The position numbers and the translations under genes were made by a program. 20,276 bases of DNA. Origin: a virus. The first letter of the stretch is position 1, and each line of letters opens with the position of its first letter. Location: IMG/VR virus record IMGVR_UViG_3300009184_000286, positions 1-20,276 of that record; one strand, 5' to 3'. Shown in pieces: positions 2,726-18,382 of this stretch. The notes beneath the pieces were generated by a model, which made no database searches, was not told the DNA's origin, and saw nothing but the letters and a program-made list of their open reading frames with translations.

Positions 2726-3322
2726 TTAAGATGCCAACACAAGTAATGCGTGATCTATGTGTTTTATGCGGTCTTCTAGCCCTATAAAACCACCATTTAT
2801 CTTCTTTGTTAAAGTTTTGTAATCTTTGGTGTCAGCGTATTGATTGAGCTTATGGGTGTCCCAAAACCATCCCGCAGTCAAAGCCGCATACATTGGAGTC
2901 GCCACCAACTCAGGTTGCATTACAAAATCCACCCCTAGAGCCTGACCTGCGTGAAAATAGTTTGCATGGCCTGTCAATTGGATACATCCTCTGCCTCGGA
3001 AACGATAGCCATCACCAGAAGCCTCATCCCTGTTGCCCATGCGATTCGAGTAAACAGTATTGGCAATCAACTTAGGATTACGAGCGCAAGCCTGTGCCTT
3101 GGCAACATCAAACCTTTTAGGCCATAGCTTCTGCAAAGCCTCTGCACGATAGTTCAAATTCTCTTCAAGGATTCTAAAGTTCCCACATTCATGCCCACAT
3201 TGGCCAATGAAAGCCGCTTGTCTAACGGGATTAGAGATGTCAAAGCGTTCAAAAGTGGCATTTAGGGCATCTACCCACTCCGCACCAATGTGAAGTTGTT
3301 TAAGTTGTTCAGCGTTTATCAT
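2726..3322 (-). CDS. Endolysin, glycoside hydrolase family 19 (chitinase-like muramidase)
   Basis: 198 residues, the typical size of single-domain phage GH19 endolysins. Diagnostic blocks: QAAFIGQCGHECGNF with the catalytic-type Glu45 after His44, LEENLNYRAEALQKLWP immediately after (E53 or E54 a candidate second acid), and YRFRGRGCIQLTGHANY, the conserved GH19 substrate-cleft motif. These enzymes cut peptidoglycan glycan strands in Gram-negative walls. There is no signal peptide or membrane anchor, so export would depend on a holin. It lies just after Rz/Rz1, overlapping Rz by 14 bases, so the block works as a holin-spanin-endolysin cassette. Confidence 0.9.
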   Translation of the reverse strand: MINAEQLKQLHIGAEWVDALNATFERFDISNPVRQAAFIGQCGHECGNFRILEENLNYRAEALQKLWPKRFDVAKAQACARNPKLIANTVYSNRMGNRDEASGDGYRFRGRGCIQLTGHANYFHAGQALGVDFVMQPELVATPMYAALTAGWFWDTHKLNQYADTKDYKTLTKKINGGFIGLEDRIKHIDHALLVLAS

Positions 3323-3806
3323 TCAACAGGTCTCTCATCTGGTTATACGAGTCTACGCAAGCATTCAAAGCGATAGTATTCTTATCCCCTTGGGCAACTA
3401 TTTCTGCGATGGCATCGATTGTTGCTCTTTCGGCATCAGAAGGTTCATTAATCTGTCTGTCAGATTCACTGGTTGCTTTTGAATTTGCGCTGGTAGAGGA
3501 GGAACTTGTGGAGGCTTGTACGTTACTTGGGGGGCAGAGGCGCAACTTGCCAGCACGATTGGCAACAGCAAGAGCAGTAGTTTTTTTGTTGATAGCATCA
3601 TTGGCTTCCTGTAGTTTGGCAGATTGTTGATTAAGTTTTTCACTCATGTTTTGCTCGATCTGACGAGCTTCTTGATTCTTTTCAGCAATGGCAATCTTCA
3701 TGTCTTCATCACGCTCTAGCCATCCATAGTGGTGTCCAACTTGATATGTACCAAATAGAGATACCAAAACACCCACAATAAGCCACGGGAGAGGTATTGG
3801 GAACAT
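3309..3806 (-). CDS. Rz: Inner-membrane spanin subunit (Rz-like)
   Basis: 165 residues. One N-terminal membrane span (residues about 7-24, WLIVGVLVSLFGTYQVG) is followed by a charged, heptad-like region (about 31-85, EKNQEARQIEQNMSEKL and on) that should form a periplasmic coiled coil, then a Ser/Thr-rich low-complexity stretch and a helical C-terminus. This is the i-spanin plan; with Rz1 it bridges and fuses the two membranes after wall breakdown. The low-complexity stretch is where the Rz1 frame is nested, so it is probably shaped by overprinting. Start and upstream stop overlap as TAATG. Assignment rests on topology and on the nested Rz1. Confidence 0.8.
   Translation of the reverse strand: MFPIPLPWLIVGVLVSLFGTYQVGHHYGWLERDEDMKIAIAEKNQEARQIEQNMSEKLNQQSAKLQEANDAINKKTTALAVANRAGKLRLCPPSNVQASTSSSSTSANSKATSESDRQINEPSDAERATIDAIAEIVAQGDKNTIALNACVDSYNQMRDLLNDKR
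3398..3601 (-). CDS. Rz1: Outer-membrane spanin lipoprotein (Rz1-like), nested in Rz
   Basis: The frame lies wholly within Rz in another reading frame, as in lambda. The likely product (about 67 residues from the ATG at 3601, or 66 from 3598) starts with a Lys-containing n-region, a Leu-rich core and the lipobox LASC; the mature lipoprotein is proline-rich (VTYKPPQVPPLPAQIQ). It would sit in the inner leaflet of the outer membrane and bind Rz. AGGA lies 5 bases before the ATG at 3601. The longer frame from 3643 adds 14 residues before the signal peptide and is less likely. Confidence 0.8.
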   Translation of the reverse strand: MMLSTKKLLLLLLPIVLASCASAPQVTYKPPQVPPLPAQIQKQPVNLTDRLMNLLMPKEQQSMPSQK

Positions 3807-5351: not shown

Positions 5352-7808
5352 TTATCTAAACAAGTCTAAAAGACCTGTTGCCGATGGGAAAAAGTTTTCT
5401 GGGTTTGTGGTTGCAGCGTTTATTCCCTGACCCATTGCTGTACCCATACCACCAGTACCTTGAAGTTGCTCACCAAGCAAATATCGTGTACCACTTGGGC
5501 TGCTTAAAACATTAGACAGTCTATTAGCCATTGGTGGAACTAATGTGACACCCGCCATAGCACCCAAAGTTGGATCAAATCCAAGTGATGTAGCAGCACC
5601 AGCTCCTGCACCTGCACCCATTCCTGTTGTCATCAAAGGAACATTTAATGCGCCTGTTTGAGGTGCTACTTTAGGAGTTACAGCACCACGAGTTGCATCA
5701 ACAATATTGCGTAATAAGCCAACTTCACTCATAACTTCTGGCGTCTGACCCATAACCATTCTTTGAGCAGAAGGAAGTTCAGACCTACCTAGATTTAGTG
5801 TTCTGGTAAAAGCAGGAGATGACAACATAGCCGCTGCATCTGAATTTATTGCAGCATTACGGGCTTGATTAAGTATTGAGTATTGAGCCGCTTGTCTACC
5901 AGTATCAGACATCAAATTAACAGCTAATTCAGCAGTAGCAGGATTGCCCGTCAAACTAAAGCTTTGAGCAATTTTATCAATTTCATTTGGAGCTGTTTTG
6001 CTAGAAACAATTTTATAAATATCTGGATCTTGTCTAAAAGGAACAACAGTATTTCTAAACTGCTCCATTGCACGAGCGTGTTCTGCACCAGCAGGAGTAT
6101 AGACAGGCTTGTTATTTAAAGTTCTAGGAGCCGCCCAAGCATCTACATCATTTGCAAGACCTCCATATAACTTAGATAAAGCCGCTATTTGTTCTTCACC
6201 ATAGGTAGCGGGTGCTTTTTGTACTCTGTTTAGTTCAGATCCAACTGATTTTTGTAAGGTTCTCAGTTCTTTATAAGTTCCACCACCAGCTTGATTTAAA
6301 TTATTTGCACGTTCTACAAGTTTGGTAATAAAGGCATTATCTGCAACAGCAGGGAACTTATCTAAAACCTCAAGAGTTGCAGTATTTGTATTTGATAAAG
6401 GAATTTGAGTATTCCCTGCCAACTTTTCAGCACGATCAAATATTGGAGAAACAGCATCTTTAGCATTACGATATTGAGTTCTTAAATCATTAGCAATAAC
6501 TAACTTTTCTCCACCTTCTTTTGTAATGGAAGCTGGTTTAACTTGTTCAGTAACTTTTTCAATTAAATCACGAACTTGTGCAGATTTTGCTTGATTTGCA
6601 TCTTGTGTTGTATCGCCAAATTGACGAGTTTTACGCAACAACGCAGAGCCTGGTCCACCAACATCACCAACATCAATATTTACACCACGTTGTGCAGCAG
6701 ACTCAATCAATTGGCCAGTTACAGGATCACGATAACGTGTACCAGAAGGTATATTACCTGCACGAGCCGCAACAGCACTAGCAGGTAAACCTGCAGCTAA
6801 GTTAATGCCTAATAAAGCTAAAGGATTTTGGACATCATAAACACTACGTGCAATTTCAGCCGCTCCAGTACCAGCGGTAGCACCTGCCACTTGAGCAATC
6901 GGTTGAGCCGCCAATCCACGACCAACCACTTGTGCTGTTAAATTAGGAGCTTGTTGCAATAGTCCACCAACACCACCCATTACAGGAATCCCTGCTACTG
7001 CACGAGTAACATTGGCAATCCCTTTTTGGAATTCAGTTTCTGGTTGTGGCAAACCAAGCATATTTGCAAAATTGGACATTGCTTGGCTAGGGTTTTGAAG
7101 CTGACTACCAGTAGCCCTGTTAATCAACATATTTAATGGTGATCCAACTATGTCAGCAATTCCTCCCGCACCTTCCAATCCATACCTAATTGTCCGACCA
7201 ACTTCATTGACGGCTTGATTGCCTAAACGATTAAAAGTAGTACCTTGCGGTGCAGGAGCTTGTTGAACAACAGCTTCGCCAAGCATTGATGGATCAATGG
7301 TCCGATATCTAGTGTTTTGCTGCCTATCTGGAGTAGCCATACCTGTCAAATCAATCTTTGGAGATTGTTGATCTGTTGATTGCTCAAGAAAAGAAGGATC
7401 AACTTTACGATAAGTAGCCATTTTTGCACCTACAACTTTCTCAACATAATTTTGAGTTTCTTTAAATGGAGGAACTCCACCATACTTTTCAACTGTACCT
7501 GGACCAGCGTTATAAGCAGCCGCCACCAAAGTGGGATCTTGGAATCGTTCAGTCAACTGGCCTAGATATTTAACACCACCACGGATGTTATCTTTCCAGT
7601 CCATACGATTGACACCAAGATCTTTGGCAGTAGCACTCATCAACTGCATAGGACCATAGGCACGATCATTAAACCTTGTCTTTGGTCCTATTGCGTTAAA
7701 TGAACCGCCAGATTCTGTTTCAACAATCTTTTGAACCAAAGAAAAAGGAACGCCTTGCCTTTCGGCTTCTTGCCTAGCAAATTCGTAAACTTGATCTTTG
7801 GTTGCCAT
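5352..7808 (-). CDS. Virion ejection protein with N-terminal lytic transglycosylase (SLT) domain
   Basis: 818 residues. Residues about 18-125 form an SLT/lysozyme-like domain: VETESGG with catalytic Glu32, RAYGPMQLMSATAKDLG, and AAAYNAGPGTVEKYGG, the usual substrate-groove motifs. Such domains in podovirus internal virion proteins cut peptidoglycan during DNA entry. The rest is long and mostly helical, with Gly/Ala-rich hydrophobic stretches (about 285-355 and in the last 150 residues, e.g. GMGAGAGAGAAT) that may insert in membranes. Its start overlaps the previous gene's stop as TAATG, so translation is probably coupled. Identification as an ejection protein combines domain and position; the enzyme domain itself is clear. 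Confidence 0.85.
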   Translation of the reverse strand: MATKDQVYEFARQEAERQGVPFSLVQKIVETESGGSFNAIGPKTRFNDRAYGPMQLMSATAKDLGVNRMDWKDNIRGGVKYLGQLTERFQDPTLVAAAYNAGPGTVEKYGGVPPFKETQNYVEKVVGAKMATYRKVDPSFLEQSTDQQSPKIDLTGMATPDRQQNTRYRTIDPSMLGEAVVQQAPAPQGTTFNRLGNQAVNEVGRTIRYGLEGAGGIADIVGSPLNMLINRATGSQLQNPSQAMSNFANMLGLPQPETEFQKGIANVTRAVAGIPVMGGVGGLLQQAPNLTAQVVGRGLAAQPIAQVAGATAGTGAAEIARSVYDVQNPLALLGINLAAGLPASAVAARAGNIPSGTRYRDPVTGQLIESAAQRGVNIDVGDVGGPGSALLRKTRQFGDTTQDANQAKSAQVRDLIEKVTEQVKPASITKEGGEKLVIANDLRTQYRNAKDAVSPIFDRAEKLAGNTQIPLSNTNTATLEVLDKFPAVADNAFITKLVERANNLNQAGGGTYKELRTLQKSVGSELNRVQKAPATYGEEQIAALSKLYGGLANDVDAWAAPRTLNNKPVYTPAGAEHARAMEQFRNTVVPFRQDPDIYKIVSSKTAPNEIDKIAQSFSLTGNPATAELAVNLMSDTGRQAAQYSILNQARNAAINSDAAAMLSSPAFTRTLNLGRSELPSAQRMVMGQTPEVMSEVGLLRNIVDATRGAVTPKVAPQTGALNVPLMTTGMGAGAGAGAATSLGFDPTLGAMAGVTLVPPMANRLSNVLSSPSGTRYLLGEQLQGTGGMGTAMGQGINAATTNPENFFPSATGLLDLFR

Positions 7809-9304
7809 TAGTCAAACACCGCTGCATCGCCATTTGGCAAAATGTAAGCAGTCTTTCCATTATCAGGACCGCCAACAACTTTTTTAGTTGGAAGATATTT
7901 TCGTAATGAAGGAGCCTCAAACATTCCCTTTTGGCCTTGTGGTGATGCTGTCCATTTGTTAAGAACATCAGGGCCAGCATTTTTAGGATCAGCAACAAAG
8001 TTATAGAAATCTTCTTTACGTTTATTTGCTTCACGCAAAACTGCTAAGTTAAAGTTGGTTGATTCTTTAGGGTCTGTGATTTGAGCATTACGCTGACCAT
8101 AGTAGCCAATCTCAAAGTTAGAGATCGCTCCAACTGCTTCAGACAAACTTTCTCCTGTCAAAGCATTAATACCTTGACGGGCTGAAATAGCATTTGTTAA
8201 GAATTGTTTATTTCGTTCTCCAGAAACACCCAAACTGTTAAACACATTTCCTAGTTGAGTTCTGACATTTGTAAATGAACCAGTATCAAATCCTGGTTGA
8301 TTGTAAGCATTTTGTAATTGGTCAATTACTGGAGCAGTCTTTTTAGCTGTTTGATAGCCCTTGTAAGCATCAGCAAGAATTGGTTTAAATGCCTCATTTA
8401 ATACAGTTTGAGCTGTACTAGGACCAGTTATTGGTTGTGCAGTAGTCGGTTGAACAACACCTGCTGGTTGTGTAACGCCACCCGTAAGACCTGGAGGTGT
8501 TGCATAAGTAAATGTTGGCGCACCAGTTGAAGTTGTTGATGGACGAGGAATATTAGCTTCACGTGCAGCAGTTTCTGTTCTTGTTCTTGCCGCCAAAGCA
8601 TCCAAAGTACCATTTGCATTAACAATGCCAATAATATTTTGGTTATTATCAAAAGCGTATTGCTCACCTTTTTGAAGCTCTGGCAATGTATTAAGCGCAG
8701 TAGCTTTAGCAAAGCCAGGCGCAGCAGAAATATTAAAGTCTACATTTCCACCTTGAACTGTTGGCCTTGAAACTAAACCAGATCTTGCATCAAAAGATGG
8801 AAGACCACCAATGGGTTGCATATTAGCATTTGTTAAGATTCCACTTGGTTGCATTTTAGGTTGCAAAGAAGTAATAGCTCCAAGCATTGAGCTTTGAGAA
8901 GCAGTAGGCAAGTTAATCACATCTTGCAAAGCATTCTGGATATTGAAAGGCAAACCTTGCGCTCTGGCAGTTTTCAATTCATTTTGTTGTTGAGCAACAT
9001 CTGGAGTTACAGGACCCATGTACTGAGGACTGGCTTCATTAAATTGCGTAGGCATATATTTGCCTTGGAAATTAGCTACAGCCGCACGATCAGCCGCCTT
9101 TTGTTGCATCTCAGTAATAGCTCTTTGGCCACTTAAATACTGATCTGGTACAGATAGAGCAGACTTCAGCCCCATAGAAGGGTCATTGCTTAACAGAGAG
9201 CCAAGCAAGAATTGTTGTGTAGCTTGTTTTTGAAGACTACTCTTCTCTTCATCACTAAGACCAGTAAGCGCTGCATCAGACAGCAAACCAAGATTAAAAG
9301 GCAT
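7808..9304 (-). CDS. Probable virion (ejection-complex) protein, ~500 residues
   Basis: 498 residues, with no enzymatic motif recognised. The N-terminal third has Gln/Met-rich helices (YLSGQRAITEMQQKAADRAA), the middle is Pro/Thr/Gly-rich and probably flexible (PRPSTTSTGAPTF, GVTQPAGVVQPTTAQPITG), and the C-terminal third is helical again (about 325-460), ending in a short beta unit (VGGPDNGKTAYILPNGDAAVF). AAGGAG precedes the start by about 6 bases. Sandwiched between the repeat-rich protein and the transglycosylase, it would be the second component of an internal or ejection complex. That role is positional inference. Confidence 0.7.
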   Translation of the reverse strand: MPFNLGLLSDAALTGLSDEEKSSLQKQATQQFLLGSLLSNDPSMGLKSALSVPDQYLSGQRAITEMQQKAADRAAVANFQGKYMPTQFNEASPQYMGPVTPDVAQQQNELKTARAQGLPFNIQNALQDVINLPTASQSSMLGAITSLQPKMQPSGILTNANMQPIGGLPSFDARSGLVSRPTVQGGNVDFNISAAPGFAKATALNTLPELQKGEQYAFDNNQNIIGIVNANGTLDALAARTRTETAAREANIPRPSTTSTGAPTFTYATPPGLTGGVTQPAGVVQPTTAQPITGPSTAQTVLNEAFKPILADAYKGYQTAKKTAPVIDQLQNAYNQPGFDTGSFTNVRTQLGNVFNSLGVSGERNKQFLTNAISARQGINALTGESLSEAVGAISNFEIGYYGQRNAQITDPKESTNFNLAVLREANKRKEDFYNFVADPKNAGPDVLNKWTASPQGQKGMFEAPSLRKYLPTKKVVGGPDNGKTAYILPNGDAAVFD

Positions 9305-9313
9305 AAAGACTCC

Positions 9314-11290
9314 TTAGAAACCAAGAGCGCCAAGAATTCCTTGGCTTGAACTTGAAGATGATTGACCACCAGCACCACCACCAGGGTTGAGTCCCAATGC
9401 TTGGTTGATGATTTGTTGTTGCTCCAGTGGCAAATTGCGGATTGCATCCAACTGTTGCTGAGTGAACTGTTGTTGTTGTAAACCACTTGTCTGCAAAGCT
9501 TGCGCACCAGTAAGTCCCATTTGTTGAGTGTTTTGAGCAATACCAGCCATTTGACCAGCAGCACCCAAGCGTTGTTGATTGGCAGATAAGCCAGCTTGTT
9601 GATTGGCTAAATTAGCTTGCAAGAAGTTTTGAGCATTTGTCAAGCCAGCTTGTTGAGTCAATCCCGCTTGTTGAGAGGCAGCAGCATTTATAGCCGCTTG
9701 GTTGGCCAATCCTGCTTGGTTAAATGCAGAAGCACCAAACTGACCTGCTTGGTTTTGAGCCGCTTGGTTAGCTAATGATGTTGCTTGCTGATTGGCGGCA
9801 TTGTATTGAGCCATTTGATCGGCAGCAGCAGCATTCTGCAAAGCCGCAGTATTAGCAGCCGTAGAGCCAAACTGTGCAGCTTGATTTTGAGCGGCAACAT
9901 TTGTAAGACCTGCTTGTTGCAAATTACCAACATTAAATTGGTTCATCTGATTCATTGCAGCTTGGTTAGCTAAATTAGCTTGTTGAGCGTTTTGAGTATT
10001 TAACTGACCAGTGCTTAAATCAATACCTTGATTGGCAAGTGAGGCTCTTAATGCAGCATCTTGATTAGCTTGTGCGGCTTGCAGTGCAGTAGCTTGGTTT
10101 AGTTGTTGTGATTGCAAACCAGTAGATTGATTTGCAAGAGAAGCACGTAAGTTTACATCTTGATTAGCCAAATTAGCTTGTTGTTGCAGTTGAGCATTGC
10201 TCAAGCCATACTGAGTATCAACACCTTGGTTGGCCAAAGCCGCACGTAAGTTTGCATCTTGATTGGCCAAACCAAACTGACCAGAAAGTTGTAGTGCTTG
10301 CTGAGTGGTAGCAGCATCTTGGGCTTGATTAAGTTGCTGTGCTTGCATCTGTCTACCAATATCAGCCTCAGAAGCTTGTTGGGCAGCTTGGTAAGCGGCA
10401 GCATTTTGTTGAGCAACCAATCGAGCCGCATTCTCTCCAAAGGCACGATTAGTCTCAGCCTCTGCAACGCCTTGACGAGATCCACCAAATGCACCAGCAG
10501 CAGTAGCTTGAGCAGAAGTTTGTTGTTGTTGCAACTGGCGTGAACGCTCTAAATCTTTTAAACTTTGCTCAGTAACAGCTTGTGTATATGGATTCATATA
10601 CTGCTGAATATTCTGGTTTAAAAATGATCCAGCTTGAATATCACGAACATTCTGACGGGCTTGAGGAGCAATTTGACCTAAAGCCTCAGAAGTAACCTGT
10701 GCACCAGACACACCAGTAGCAGATACATCTCTTGCACCACCTCTTGCTGCTTGTGCGGCAGCGGCTTGTTGTGCGGCAATTCTTTCAGCATCAACATTTT
10801 GTACTCCAATTTGTTGAGCAGTAGCATTTTGAATAGCACTACGATTCAAAGAAGCGCCTTGCGCTAAAGAAGCAGGAGCAGCTTGTGCACCACCAAATTG
10901 TGATGCGGTATAGCCTTGTGAAGCCGCTCTTTGAGCCGCACCCGCACTAGCAGCAGTGCCAGTTTGTGCCGTATAACCTTGTTGAGCCGCTAAAGCTGCA
11001 GGAGCAACAGTAGCACCACCATAAGCATTGTAAGTAACATTTTGTGGATTGTAATTTCCAGCAGCACTGGCAACATTAAATGCTGAAGCCATATTCCTAA
11101 ATTGTTGGCTGTTAGGATCAGCAAGGCTACGTGTAGTCTGTTGAGCAGTTAATTGATCTGGAGTAAAACCTGCAAATTGTTGTGCTCCCAAATTACCTGC
11201 TACACCTTGTGCTCTAGTAAGATTTCCTAAATAAGCATCACGAATTAGCGGATCAAGTTGAGCCACAGTTGTAGAAGAACCACCAGACAT
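9314..11290 (-). CDS. Ala/Gln-rich virion protein with 11-residue repeats
   Basis: 658 residues from the ATG at 11290, which has a perfect GGAGG (11298-11302) 7 bases upstream; an ATG at 11314 would add eight residues and run into the previous gene. The N-terminus (MSGGSSTTVAQLDPLIRDAYLGNL) is non-repetitive and may bind a partner. A region near 210-300 (IAPQARQNVRDIQAG, YMNPYTQAVTEQSL, GAFGGSRQGVAEAE) looks conserved and helical. The stretch from about residue 319 to 575 has strict 11-residue spacing of a LANQ-type motif. The C-terminus ends in a Gly/Ser run and ILGALGF. Position suggests an internal, ejection or tail-tube protein. Function unproven. Confidence 0.75.
   Translation of the reverse strand: MSGGSSTTVAQLDPLIRDAYLGNLTRAQGVAGNLGAQQFAGFTPDQLTAQQTTRSLADPNSQQFRNMASAFNVASAAGNYNPQNVTYNAYGGATVAPAALAAQQGYTAQTGTAASAGAAQRAASQGYTASQFGGAQAAPASLAQGASLNRSAIQNATAQQIGVQNVDAERIAAQQAAAAQAARGGARDVSATGVSGAQVTSEALGQIAPQARQNVRDIQAGSFLNQNIQQYMNPYTQAVTEQSLKDLERSRQLQQQQTSAQATAAGAFGGSRQGVAEAETNRAFGENAARLVAQQNAAAYQAAQQASEADIGRQMQAQQLNQAQDAATTQQALQLSGQFGLANQDANLRAALANQGVDTQYGLSNAQLQQQANLANQDVNLRASLANQSTGLQSQQLNQATALQAAQANQDAALRASLANQGIDLSTGQLNTQNAQQANLANQAAMNQMNQFNVGNLQQAGLTNVAAQNQAAQFGSTAANTAALQNAAAADQMAQYNAANQQATSLANQAAQNQAGQFGASAFNQAGLANQAAINAAASQQAGLTQQAGLTNAQNFLQANLANQQAGLSANQQRLGAAGQMAGIAQNTQQMGLTGAQALQTSGLQQQQFTQQQLDAIRNLPLEQQQIINQALGLNPGGGAGGQSSSSSSQGILGALGF
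9569..10336 (-). repeat. 11-residue (33-bp) coding repeats in the Ala/Gln-rich protein
   Basis: Within the 9314-11290 gene the motif [L/Q]-x-N-Q recurs at intervals of 11 residues or exact multiples. Counted from the longer frame, anchors fall at 327, 349, 360, 371, 382, 393, 404, 415, 426, 437, 448, 470, 492, 503, 514, 525, 536, 558 and 569. Units such as LANQDANLRAA and LANQDVNLRAS are near copies. An 11-residue period suits a long, slightly right-handed helical array. The DNA copies are diverged, so this is an old expansion kept in register. Confidence 0.8.
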
Positions 11291-11292
11291 AA

Positions 11293-11697
11293 TTACACCT
11301 CCGTAGATAGCCAATAATGTGTTGGCTTCATGTTAAATTTAGATACAAAAGTTCTTGACCATCCTCTACGTCCTGTTAAGGTGATCTTGTGGCATCCCAT
11401 GTCTTCAGCGAACTTCTGAATATGGGGGGTGAATGTTTCTAGCTCTGCTAAGTCACCACTTGCCAAAAATATGTGCAAAACCTTCATTCTTGGAAAGTTT
11501 TGTACCTGAGTAACAACTGCGCTGTTAACTCCAGGCCATAATTGCATCGTACAACTGCTTATACAGTCGGCTACGTCCTGCATATTATGAGTGTTATCGT
11601 ATTCTAAAGCAGGTTGAAGTATTTTTTCTACTTTTTGAAAAGATACAGCCCATAATGGTAATTTACCATCGGTTTTGTACTTTTCATAGTCAATCAT
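11293..11697 (-). CDS. Small GNAT-like protein of unknown role
   Basis: 134 residues. The pattern MQLWPGVNSAVVTQ, then MKVLHIFLASGDLAEL, then HIQKFAEDMGCHKITLTGRRGW resembles the central strands and helix of GNAT acetyltransferases (a strand, an acyl-CoA-facing helix, and a GR-GW ending), though the protein is shorter than most. I recall similar small proteins in phage structural clusters. No acetyl-CoA loop (Q/RxxGxG/A) is clear, so it may be a non-enzymatic or degenerate member. It overlaps the upstream gene as ATGA, and its last codons hold the next gene's SD. Confidence 0.6.
   Translation of the reverse strand: MIDYEKYKTDGKLPLWAVSFQKVEKILQPALEYDNTHNMQDVADCISSCTMQLWPGVNSAVVTQVQNFPRMKVLHIFLASGDLAELETFTPHIQKFAEDMGCHKITLTGRRGWSRTFVSKFNMKPTHYWLSTEV
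11298..11302 (-). promoter_or_regulatory. Strong ribosome binding site that fixes the start at 11290
   Basis: On the - strand GGAGG is followed by 7 bases and ATG at 11290. It lies inside the last codons of the GNAT-like gene, whose TAA stop falls between the SD and the ATG. It is the strongest SD noted in the window, suggesting the Ala/Gln-rich protein is made in quantity, unlike neighbours that rely on overlap coupling. Confidence 0.75.
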
Positions 11698-13169
11698 CTT
11701 AAACTGCCAGGTTTCCCATCAAATCTAATAATCCCAACACGCCAATCAGTTAAATCAACACCTTCAATTCTTGCTGAAATTTGTCTACCAGTTAAACGAA
11801 CTGAAGTAGGGTTATTCATTGAATATGGGCCATAGTTGTATTCAGTAGAATTAGGATAAAACCTAGTGCTAAATTTAACTTGCACATCACCAGAAGTCTT
11901 TTCATCAGGTACTAATCCTGTAAGACTCATGGTTCTATCGCCATTTCCTAGTTCTATTGGTCCTGATTCAGCGAATAAAGTCTGTGAATCATAGTTAAAT
12001 CCAACTTCATGCTCATAGACGTAACTATCTGAAGCAACCATAATTGGATTTGAAAAAATACCACGATCTGTACCGCAAGTACGACCAAAAGTACCGATTG
12101 CCCAATGATTCTCATGGTAATTGTAAGAAACGTAAGAATCTACCTCTGTAGATGAAACGCTTGGGTAAAACCACCAAATCTCACCAAAAGTAGAATTATG
12201 TACACAATAAATCTTAGATGCTTGAGCAGTATTTAAATTAGTAAATACATAATCAGAAACATCTGAATTTAAAGGCTTAACAAAACCATCGTATATCCAG
12301 AATCCTGATCCAGACATCCAAATACAAGCATTATCAATACTTGCTACCGATTGTTTAGAAATAACACCACAACCAGAGGCTATACGCTCAAAACTATAAA
12401 TAAATGGTGGGCCAATGTATGTTGCGGTATGCACATCAACATCAGTGAACAGGATAGTAGCGCCACGAATGCGTTTAGCACATTGCAAAGAGCCAATTGT
12501 AGTTAGCTCAAAGTCACCAGCTTGATTTGTTGCGGCAGGTGTCCATACAGTATTGTTTTCTTGGTCACACCATTGAACTTTACGGGGATTACCACCAGCA
12601 CCCAATGCAAACAAGAATCGTTCTTGAGTGGTAATTAAACCTGTGCAACTTGTTGGAGCATTTGTAATGGCAACAGCATCATTGGCAGTATTTAATTGCC
12701 ATTCAAGCAATTTACCATCTTTTGACGAGCAAGCTACTAAATACTCACCCCAAGTATCCAAACTCCATGTAGTAGCAGGAGTAGATTGAGATGTGTCAGG
12801 ACGAGCAATGCCATAGGCAGAACTACCATAAGTTCCATATCCATAACCAATTTTTAAGATTGCATCTGCATCGCCAACAGTAAAACTTGTAGGCGTAATA
12901 TCAGTCAAAGTACCACTCTCATTCATTGAATAAAGGTTTGAATGTGTACCAATTCCGATACGTCTGTTGTTTGTGTTATCACGCCATGTAATCAAGCCAC
13001 GGGCCATGCCTGTCAATTGAGAATTAGAGCGTTTTCTCCACCCACCAACAGGGCGAATTGTTCCTTCGTACCAACGTACCAAATTTGATCCGTTCCAACG
13101 CCCTTTAGACTGATATTCAGTCCCATTTTTATAAACACCAGGAGGAATTTGTAGTGGAATGTAAGCCAT
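11694..13169 (-). CDS. Tail/hub structural protein (beta-rich, ~490 residues)
   Basis: 491 residues with a conserved-looking start (PLQIPPGVYKNGTEYQSKGR, then NLVRWYEGTIRPVGGWRK). The rest shows repeated beta-type blocks with Trp/Tyr/Gly turns (TWSLDTWGEYLVACSSKDGKL, ERFLFALGAGGNPRKVQWCDQ, ASIDNACIWMSGSGFWIYDG), as in a beta-propeller. In short-tailed phages, proteins of this size and order next to the adaptor make the nozzle or hub, or stabilise packaged DNA. I infer such a role; no enzyme motif is seen. Its stop overlaps the next start as ATGA. Confidence 0.7.
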   Translation of the reverse strand: MAYIPLQIPPGVYKNGTEYQSKGRWNGSNLVRWYEGTIRPVGGWRKRSNSQLTGMARGLITWRDNTNNRRIGIGTHSNLYSMNESGTLTDITPTSFTVGDADAILKIGYGYGTYGSSAYGIARPDTSQSTPATTWSLDTWGEYLVACSSKDGKLLEWQLNTANDAVAITNAPTSCTGLITTQERFLFALGAGGNPRKVQWCDQENNTVWTPAATNQAGDFELTTIGSLQCAKRIRGATILFTDVDVHTATYIGPPFIYSFERIASGCGVISKQSVASIDNACIWMSGSGFWIYDGFVKPLNSDVSDYVFTNLNTAQASKIYCVHNSTFGEIWWFYPSVSSTEVDSYVSYNYHENHWAIGTFGRTCGTDRGIFSNPIMVASDSYVYEHEVGFNYDSQTLFAESGPIELGNGDRTMSLTGLVPDEKTSGDVQVKFSTRFYPNSTEYNYGPYSMNNPTSVRLTGRQISARIEGVDLTDWRVGIIRFDGKPGSLR

Positions 13170-16522: not shown

Positions 16523-18382
16523 TTAAGCCACCGAACCTGTCAAAGCGCCATAAATTGTTGTTCCAACTTTCCAAAGTTGAATAACTGTAAATCCTGTAGT
16601 TGCCAATGTAGGAGCAGTTCCACCAACCCAAGTAACTGCAAGGGTAGTCCATGTAACTGCATAAGCAGTACCATCGTTAATCATTAATGTCATACTTTGA
16701 CCAGCAGCCCATGTACCCGCAGTAGGAGTACGACTCGCACCTAAAGTCCATGTTTGAATAGACCCGTTAGTTGGAGATATTGCTACACCAGCCGCATCAA
16801 CGACTGCATAAACTTCTTCTGTGTAGCCATCATTTAATGTTACACCACTCATTGTTGGAGATGTTGCAAATACTAAAGCACCACTACCTGTTTCATCTGT
16901 AACAGCAGCGGCAAGGTTAGCGGATGTAGGTGTTCCAAGAAATGTAGCAACACCAGTCCCTAAAGAAGTTATGCCTGTACCACCATTAGCAACAGGAAGA
17001 GTACCGCTAACCTGAGTTGTCAAGCTAACACCTGACAATGTACCACCTAGTGTCAAATTACCAGAAGAAGTAACAGTTCCTGTTAATGTAATACCATTGA
17101 CAGTTCCTGTACCTCCTACGCTGGTTACAGTTCCAGATCCACCAGCAGAAATAAATTCAACATCTGTTGCACCAGAATTAACTGCTAAAACTTTACCCGC
17201 ATTTGAAGTAAAGCTAGGCAATAGATTTGTTCTTGCACCAGCAGCAGTAGTTGCCGCAGTTCCACCATTCGCCACAGGAAGAGAACCCGTGACACCAGTG
17301 GATAAAGGAAGACCTGTAGCGTTAGTTAACGTAGCAGATGTTGGTGTTCCCAATATTGGAGTTACAAGCGTTGGGCTTGTTGCAAATACTAGAGAACCAC
17401 TGCCAGTTTCGTCAGTAACAGCCGTAGCCAAATTAGCACTAGAAGGCGTGCCTAAAAATGTAGCAATGCCTGTACCTAAAGATGTGATTCCTGTACCACC
17501 ATTGGCGACAGGCAAAGTGCCAGTAACACCAGTAGACAATGGTAGTCCAGTGGCGTTTGTCAATGTGCCAGACGTTGGCGTTCCAAGAATAGGAGTTACA
17601 AGTGTTGGCGTATTAGCAAACACTAACGCACCAGTACCAGTTTCATCTGTAACTGCGGAAGCAAGATTGGCACTTGAAGGCGTGCCAAGGAAAGTAGCAA
17701 CACCAGTTCCCAATCCACTGACACCCGTACTAATTGGTAAACCAGTAGCATTTGTTAAAGTGCCAGATGTTGGTGTTCCTAGTATCGGTGTAACCAATGT
17801 TGGTGTGTTAGCAAACACCAAAGCACCAGTGCCAGTTTCATCAGTTACAGATGCGGCAAGGTTTGCACTCGATGGCGTTCCTAAGAACGTAGCTACACCA
17901 GTTCCAAAAGACGTAATTCCTGTACCACCATTAGCTACTGGAAGTGTTCCAGTAACGCCTGTTGTCAAGGGAAGACCTGTTAAGTTTGTGGCTGTGCCAC
18001 CAGATGGCGTACCTAAAGCACCGCCATTTACAACGGGAGCGCCAGCACTACCTACGTTAACTGCTAAAGCCGTAGCGACACCAGTTCCAAGCCCAGACAC
18101 GCCAGTGCTAATTGGAAGCCCTGTAGCATTGGTTAAAGTGGCAGATGTCGGTGTGCCAAGAACTGGAGTAACTAAAGTAGGGCTTGTAGATAAAACATTG
18201 TTACCAGTGCCCGTGCTAGTTCCAACACCAGTACCACCTTTTGTTACTTTAAGTAATGGTCCAGCATCAAACAACGCATCAATTGAGTCCAGATCAGTAT
18301 TGATCTTAGTACCCCATGTGTCTGTTGAAGCGCCAACTTCTGGCTTTGTTAAGCCTAGATTTGTGGTGGTTGTATCAGCCAT
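16523..18382 (-). CDS. Tail fibre protein built from repeats
   Basis: 619 residues. The N-terminus ([20 protein letters not shown], then [14 protein letters not shown]) is the virion-attachment segment common to many phage tail fibres. Residues about 68-510 repeat modules such as [34 protein letters not shown] and [13 protein letters not shown], giving a long thin fibre. The C-terminal ~110 residues (from about 510, [16 protein letters not shown]) form a different globular tip ([18 protein letters not shown]). GAGG lies just before the start. A 442-codon open frame on the other strand is a by-product of the repeats. Confidence 0.85.
16853..18181 (-). repeat. Mosaic protein repeats in the tail fibre gene
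   Basis: PTLVTP modules start at residues 68, 194, 259 and 337; NGGTGITS modules at about 151, 295 and 467; FLGTPxSANLA at about 166, 231, 310 and 481. Protein copies are nearly identical, but the DNA differs at many third codon positions (for example GTPT and VTP are written with different codons in each copy). Confidence 0.8.

Follow-up and report, generated by a model that had tools for sequence, protein, structure and literature searches.

The window, the whole stretch of DNA analysed here, is a virus record of 20,276 bases, and its gene set is of the short-tailed phage type, with an SU10-type head-tail adaptor (PF24175; 18438..19058, minus strand), a nozzle-type protein and a protein with an SLT transglycosylase domain. 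The adaptor and the nozzle-like protein support the assignment to a short-tailed phage made in the original prediction. The gene of interest encodes a repeat protein and stands in the minus-strand order nozzle, 134-aa protein, repeat protein, 498-aa protein and SLT protein. The nozzle/stabilization-type virion protein (11694..13169; phrog_3287) has 491 aa in all relatives tested, and the upstream neighbour (11293..11697), which belongs to an acetyltransferase-like family, keeps its length of 134 aa in relatives. The 498-aa downstream neighbour (7808..9304) has no family match and a length independent of that of the repeat, and the 818-aa SLT protein (5352..7808) would, by its position, be an ejection-type peptidoglycan hydrolase. 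The repeat gene is found among ejection or internal virion genes, in the neighbourhood of genes for a peptidoglycan hydrolase and a nozzle/stabilization protein, and annotated relatives show synteny with acetyltransferase and internal-virion genes. Elsewhere in the window lie a nested Rz/Rz1-like spanin pair in overlapping minus-strand frames (3309-3806 and 3398-3643, the inner one with a lipoprotein-like signal), an adjoining glycoside hydrolase 19 endolysin (2726-3322) and a tail-fibre-like protein with imperfect repeats (16523-18382, minus strand), whose length varies among relatives independently of the repeat protein. A search of genome contigs returned just two distant relatives, both in metagenome-assembled genomes (MAGs), from which no host was identified.

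The repeat-protein gene (9314..11290, minus strand) encodes 658 aa when read from ATG 11290. The open reading frame as listed (9314-11314) opens at TTG 11314; ATG 11290 is likely to be the true start because the MSGGSS start motif is found there family-wide, directly past the upstream stop. Residue numbers used here count from TTG 11314, except for AlphaFold2 segments, which follow the 658-aa numbering. From the N-terminus, and all on the minus strand, the protein consists of a conserved domain that is predicted to be helical (MSGGSS...LDP...; 11045..11290); a variable arm, the "tape" (residues about 90-208; 10691..11047), whose length is locked to that of the hendecad zone; an invariant core helix, alpha-1 (SEALGQIAP...NPYTQAV...; 10490..10690), of constant length in all relatives; the GGSRQG turn together with the opening 66-residue stretch of the long helix (10289..10486), which lacks LANQ and is likely the antiparallel partner of alpha-1; the LANQ zone (9563..10288), a series of 22 eleven-residue units whose register is perfect; and a constant C-terminal part (9317..9562) comprising LPLEQQQIINQALG, a Gly-rich linker and a hydrophobic GLLGLLG-like tail.

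A strict 11-residue periodicity, with LANQ anchors on an 11-residue grid, had been proposed for positions 9569-10336, which correspond to residues 327-582 of the minus-strand frame 9314-11314. Both parts of this proposal are borne out. Residue-identity autocorrelation over these residues peaks at lag 11 (z=6.3), as predicted, and at lags 22 (z=8.4), 33 (z=9.2) and 44 (z=6.9), values that none of 2000 shuffles reached at multiples of 11; in the N-terminal 326 residues the lag-11 peak is absent by the same measure. Nine exact LANQ motifs start at residues 349, 360, 382, 393, 426, 448, 514, 536 and 569, with gaps of 11, 22, 11, 33, 22, 66, 22 and 33 and a single phase throughout, and 18 of the 22 units have Asn at one shared phase (p<=0.0002 by shuffling). 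The regular LANQ zone covers residues 343-584, and the grid itself extends unbroken, with zero insertions, from the GGSRQG anchor at residue 277 to LPLEQQ. At the DNA level the units are 40% identical in register versus 29% out of register, and Tandem Repeats Finder detected no 33-bp array in the window, so that the register is not accounted for by a recent duplication of DNA. The 11-residue periodicity is a constraint at the level of the protein.

A search of viral contigs yielded 80 loci, to which later scans added further ones, and 78 distinct proteins carrying both anchors formed the homologue set in which register and repeat number were compared. All 78 keep the register: 21 different anchor-to-anchor distances occur, from 241 to 813 residues, every one of them 10 modulo 11. 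Two segments, SEALG-GGSR (alpha-1; 69 residues) and FLQANLANQ-LPLEQ (C-terminal; 64 residues), have the same length in all homologues, which confines all length variation to the hendecad arm and one N-terminal arm, and both ends of the protein are conserved across the family.

The lengths of these two arms are tightly coupled. In 77 of the 78 proteins the N-terminal arm equals 0.481 x repeat + 88 (r = 0.9998, residual SD 0.96 residues), a slope equivalent to 21 N-arm residues for every 44 repeat residues. The sole exception, L143, misses one 21-residue unit of the N arm that is present in near-identical relatives (compared with L140), its repeat arm being unchanged, a deviation that may be genuine or may reflect a collapsed assembly. 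With a tree built from the conserved parts, independent contrasts yield a slope of 0.48 and r of 0.9998 when L143 is left out, and r of 0.91 to 0.996, varying with the branch-length floor, when it is included. Comparison of arm lengths between distant subfamilies is uninformative wherever their N-terminal domains differ, and the only independent recurrence of the ratio across such subfamilies is that of L100 versus the L094 type (+51 repeat residues, +23 N residues). In phiM5 (L173 versus L174/L175) each core arm has some 40 residues more, a ratio near 1:1 that is suggestive of two helical arms there. No prior account of such arm-length coupling was found in the open-access literature searched.

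The original prediction had also raised the possibility of a length-measuring tape protein. In its usual sense this is unsupported, as the nozzle and acetyltransferase-like proteins are constant in length and the repeat protein varies; when the length of every neighbouring gene was compared with repeat length, none tracked the repeat arm. A virion or tail tape measure finds no support: no tail-length partner was found, the gene set is of the short-tailed type, and neighbour lengths are constant or uncorrelated. The partner matched in length is the second arm of the same protein.

The coupling is also seen between close relatives. In such pairs, 72 of the 81 repeat-arm indels are accompanied by one in the N arm of the right sign and size, with matched N:repeat steps of 5:11, 10-11:22, 32:66 and 42:88; the proteins of L070 and L071, for instance, are 98% identical and carry paired indels of 44 and 21 residues. 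In ten distinct pairs with a single indel, which represent seven to ten independent events (three share L046), the sign agrees in 10/10 and the distances of the indels from the core correlate between the arms (Spearman 0.92). The fit of these positions has a slope of 1.85-1.89 (SE 0.09) and an intercept of 64. This slope falls about two standard errors below the expected 2.08, probably owing to the ambiguous placement of indels within repeats. Pairs with two indels keep hairpin order in 4/4 cases and reverse order in none. Indels matched at corresponding positions and in hairpin order speak for local pairing of the arms.

The ratio between the arms has a simple geometric counterpart. A hendecad is 11 residues in three helical turns, or 16.5 Å. 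Given an alpha-helical repeat arm, with a rise of 1.5 Å per residue, each residue of the N arm would advance by 3.1 Å, as in an extended chain, and the arm ratio equals the quotient of these two rises (1.5/3.1 Å). The N arm has no predicted secondary structure, and its hydrophobicity repeats every 2.64 and 5.22 residues, close to a period of 5.28 (11 x 0.48) and its half. Across the family it has a 21-residue period, with autocorrelation at lags 21 and 42, corresponding to 44 residues in the repeat arm (21 = 44 x 0.48). In the long relative L070, Tandem Repeats Finder detects arrays of 63 bp and 132 bp in the two arms, that is, of 21 and 44 aa. AlphaFold2 places a helix at residues 210-606 of the window protein, in support of the 11-residue helical constraint proposed at the outset, and coil at residues 82-165; the monomer model, of low confidence (mean pLDDT 54), contains no contacts between tape and helix and was considered inadequate as a query for fold searching, and the minimal relative L086 was modelled at pLDDT 38. 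From these data we infer that the arms form an antiparallel, side-by-side hairpin in which an extended tape docks onto a hendecad helix. The intercept of 64 is close both to the offset at which the LANQ zone begins (66) and to the length of alpha-1 in the AlphaFold2 model (58 residues), a coincidence by which alpha-2 would pair with alpha-1 near the core and with the tape farther out. The calculated lengths match in the window, where a tape of about 118 residues, some 37 nm long, would lie opposite 242 hendecad residues measuring 36 nm, and across the family the paired zone is calculated to comprise 12 to 64 hendecads, or about 20 to 106 nm. The longest arms, with about 106 nm paired, exceed any periplasm or capsid diameter and are not explained by a simple conduit spanning the periplasm.

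Searches of Pfam, PHROGs and PDB with the window protein gave no significant match, and its family identity is approached through its shorter relatives (MW202879, L083-L114), which have the same core and synteny. Of the 19 minimal relatives, fourteen have a match to phrog_4287 (best 2.5e-9), which the window protein itself lacks, and the A1 and A2 profiles align over 78 columns at 99.9%. The DNA ejection proteins gp21 and gp22 of phage SU10 belong to phrog_4287, and SU10 gp22 matches the minimal-family profile with a probability of 94.7%. SU10 gp20-24 are present in virions and gone after genome release (PMC9509320). The homologue of Sinorhizobium phage phiM5 (Sm_phiM5_27) is likewise present in the virion proteome. 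Judged by these links, the window protein is probably a distant relative of the phrog_4287 DNA ejection proteins, linked to SU10 gp21 and gp22 and to Sm_phiM5_27 via the minimal relatives. It resembles them in its Ala/Gln/Asn-rich helical sequence, its Gly-rich hydrophobic C-terminus and its gene position among internal virion proteins, but the known members seen have about 230-470 aa and neither a long LANQ hendecad zone nor a matched tape. P22 gp7 gave no real match (14 residues only), and homology to a tail needle found no support, with an hhalign probability of 0.1% each for the minimal-family profile against P22 gp26 and SU10 gp18. Three relatives, L170 (5890-6795), L171 (5746-6984) and L173 (5578-6984), end in a Peptidase_S74 domain (chaperone of endosialidase), which is unexpected for an internal protein, probably accounts for their annotation as tail spikes and hints at a trimer.

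The reading we favour, and consider reasonably probable, is that of an ejection protein of a short-tailed phage in which a hendecad helix with a self-docked extended tape assembles into a conduit or rod. The chain upstream of the hendecad helix would run back along that helix as an extended tape at about 3.1 Å per residue, every 44 helix residues being covered by 21 of the tape. At one end the hairpin would be closed by a short helical hairpin of alpha-1 and the start of alpha-2, turning at GGSRQG, and at the other the N-terminal domain would meet the constant C-terminal part. The repeat protein would leave the head through the tail, ahead of the DNA, and several ejected copies would come together as a long conduit or rod that prolongs the tail across the envelope, its helices cemented by the tape. 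The repeat protein is most likely part of a trans-envelope DNA conduit, which would be oligomeric, with the hydrophobic C-terminus playing a role at the membrane.

Other arrangements must be weighed against this one. An external trimeric fibre or tail needle at the tail tip, freely variable in length and with the extended strand alongside the helix, is unlikely yet the strongest competitor: several phage relatives end in Peptidase_S74, typical of trimeric fibres, and are annotated as tail spike or fibre, the repeat gene lies near the nozzle gene like that of the SU10 needle gp18, and lengths ranging freely up to about 106 nm would be easier to accommodate outside the envelope. The minimal-family profile, however, does not match P22 gp26 or SU10 gp18 and does score with SU10 gp22, phrog_4287 is a DNA-ejection family, and conservation of both ends is unlike that of receptor-binding fibres. 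It is slightly less likely still that the arms do not touch and that each spans a common third structure, be it tail channel, conduit or DNA segment, that would set both lengths. The length law alone fits direct pairing and such shared adaptation equally; it is the indels matched at corresponding positions, in hairpin order, that argue for local pairing, and no other tested gene varies in length with the repeat protein. Highly improbable is the view that the 11-residue steps and the 21:44 coupling reflect structurally meaningless repeat expansion in DNA, by slippage or unequal crossing-over. Long relatives do contain recognisable 63-bp and 132-bp tandem repeats, but the window units have diverged to 40% identity with no 33-bp array, and slippage could neither couple two separate arrays so closely (r=0.9998) nor yield the matched steps from 5:11 to 42:88.

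A self-taped helical ejection protein has partial parallels in other phages. In T7, residues 157-228 of gp16 form an extended "molecular tape" that cements the helical gp15 tunnel (PMC8954989). The likeness would lie in an extended segment running along helices, with which length ratio, paired indels and the AlphaFold2 coil and helix are consistent here, although the low-confidence model shows no contact. T7 divides tape and helices between two proteins, each of fixed length, whereas here one chain carries two coupled, variable arms, and the parallel is one of working. The H-protein DNA tube of phiX174 is a partly hendecad alpha-helical conduit with a lumen rich in Asn/Gln/Arg (PMC7354561). 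Hendecads and an amide-rich composition are common to both, a likeness of working and not of kinship, since H forms a decamer with a fixed 170 Å domain in an unrelated ssDNA phage and has no extended second arm. The H tube has a lumen; the repeat protein may form either a tube wall or a solid rod. Siphophage tail tape measure proteins are also long helical repeat proteins whose length changes in fixed steps, but no tail-length partner was found for the repeat protein, the nozzle and other genes being constant in length, and its homology is to ejection proteins.

Taken further, and more tentatively, the protein may represent a self-taping conduit in which helical wall and tape belong to a single polypeptide, so that 44:21 coupling and 11-residue steps would vary its length from about 20 to 106 nm with the virion unchanged. 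A length ratio between two separate regions that is fixed to about one residue over a more than threefold range reveals their secondary structures, helix and extended chain, from sequence alone, and the coupling predicts an ejection-protein fold not described before. The natural length series offers a test of the reach required of a podophage conduit, and the matched paired indels an evolutionary route by which the length of such a conduit may be altered.
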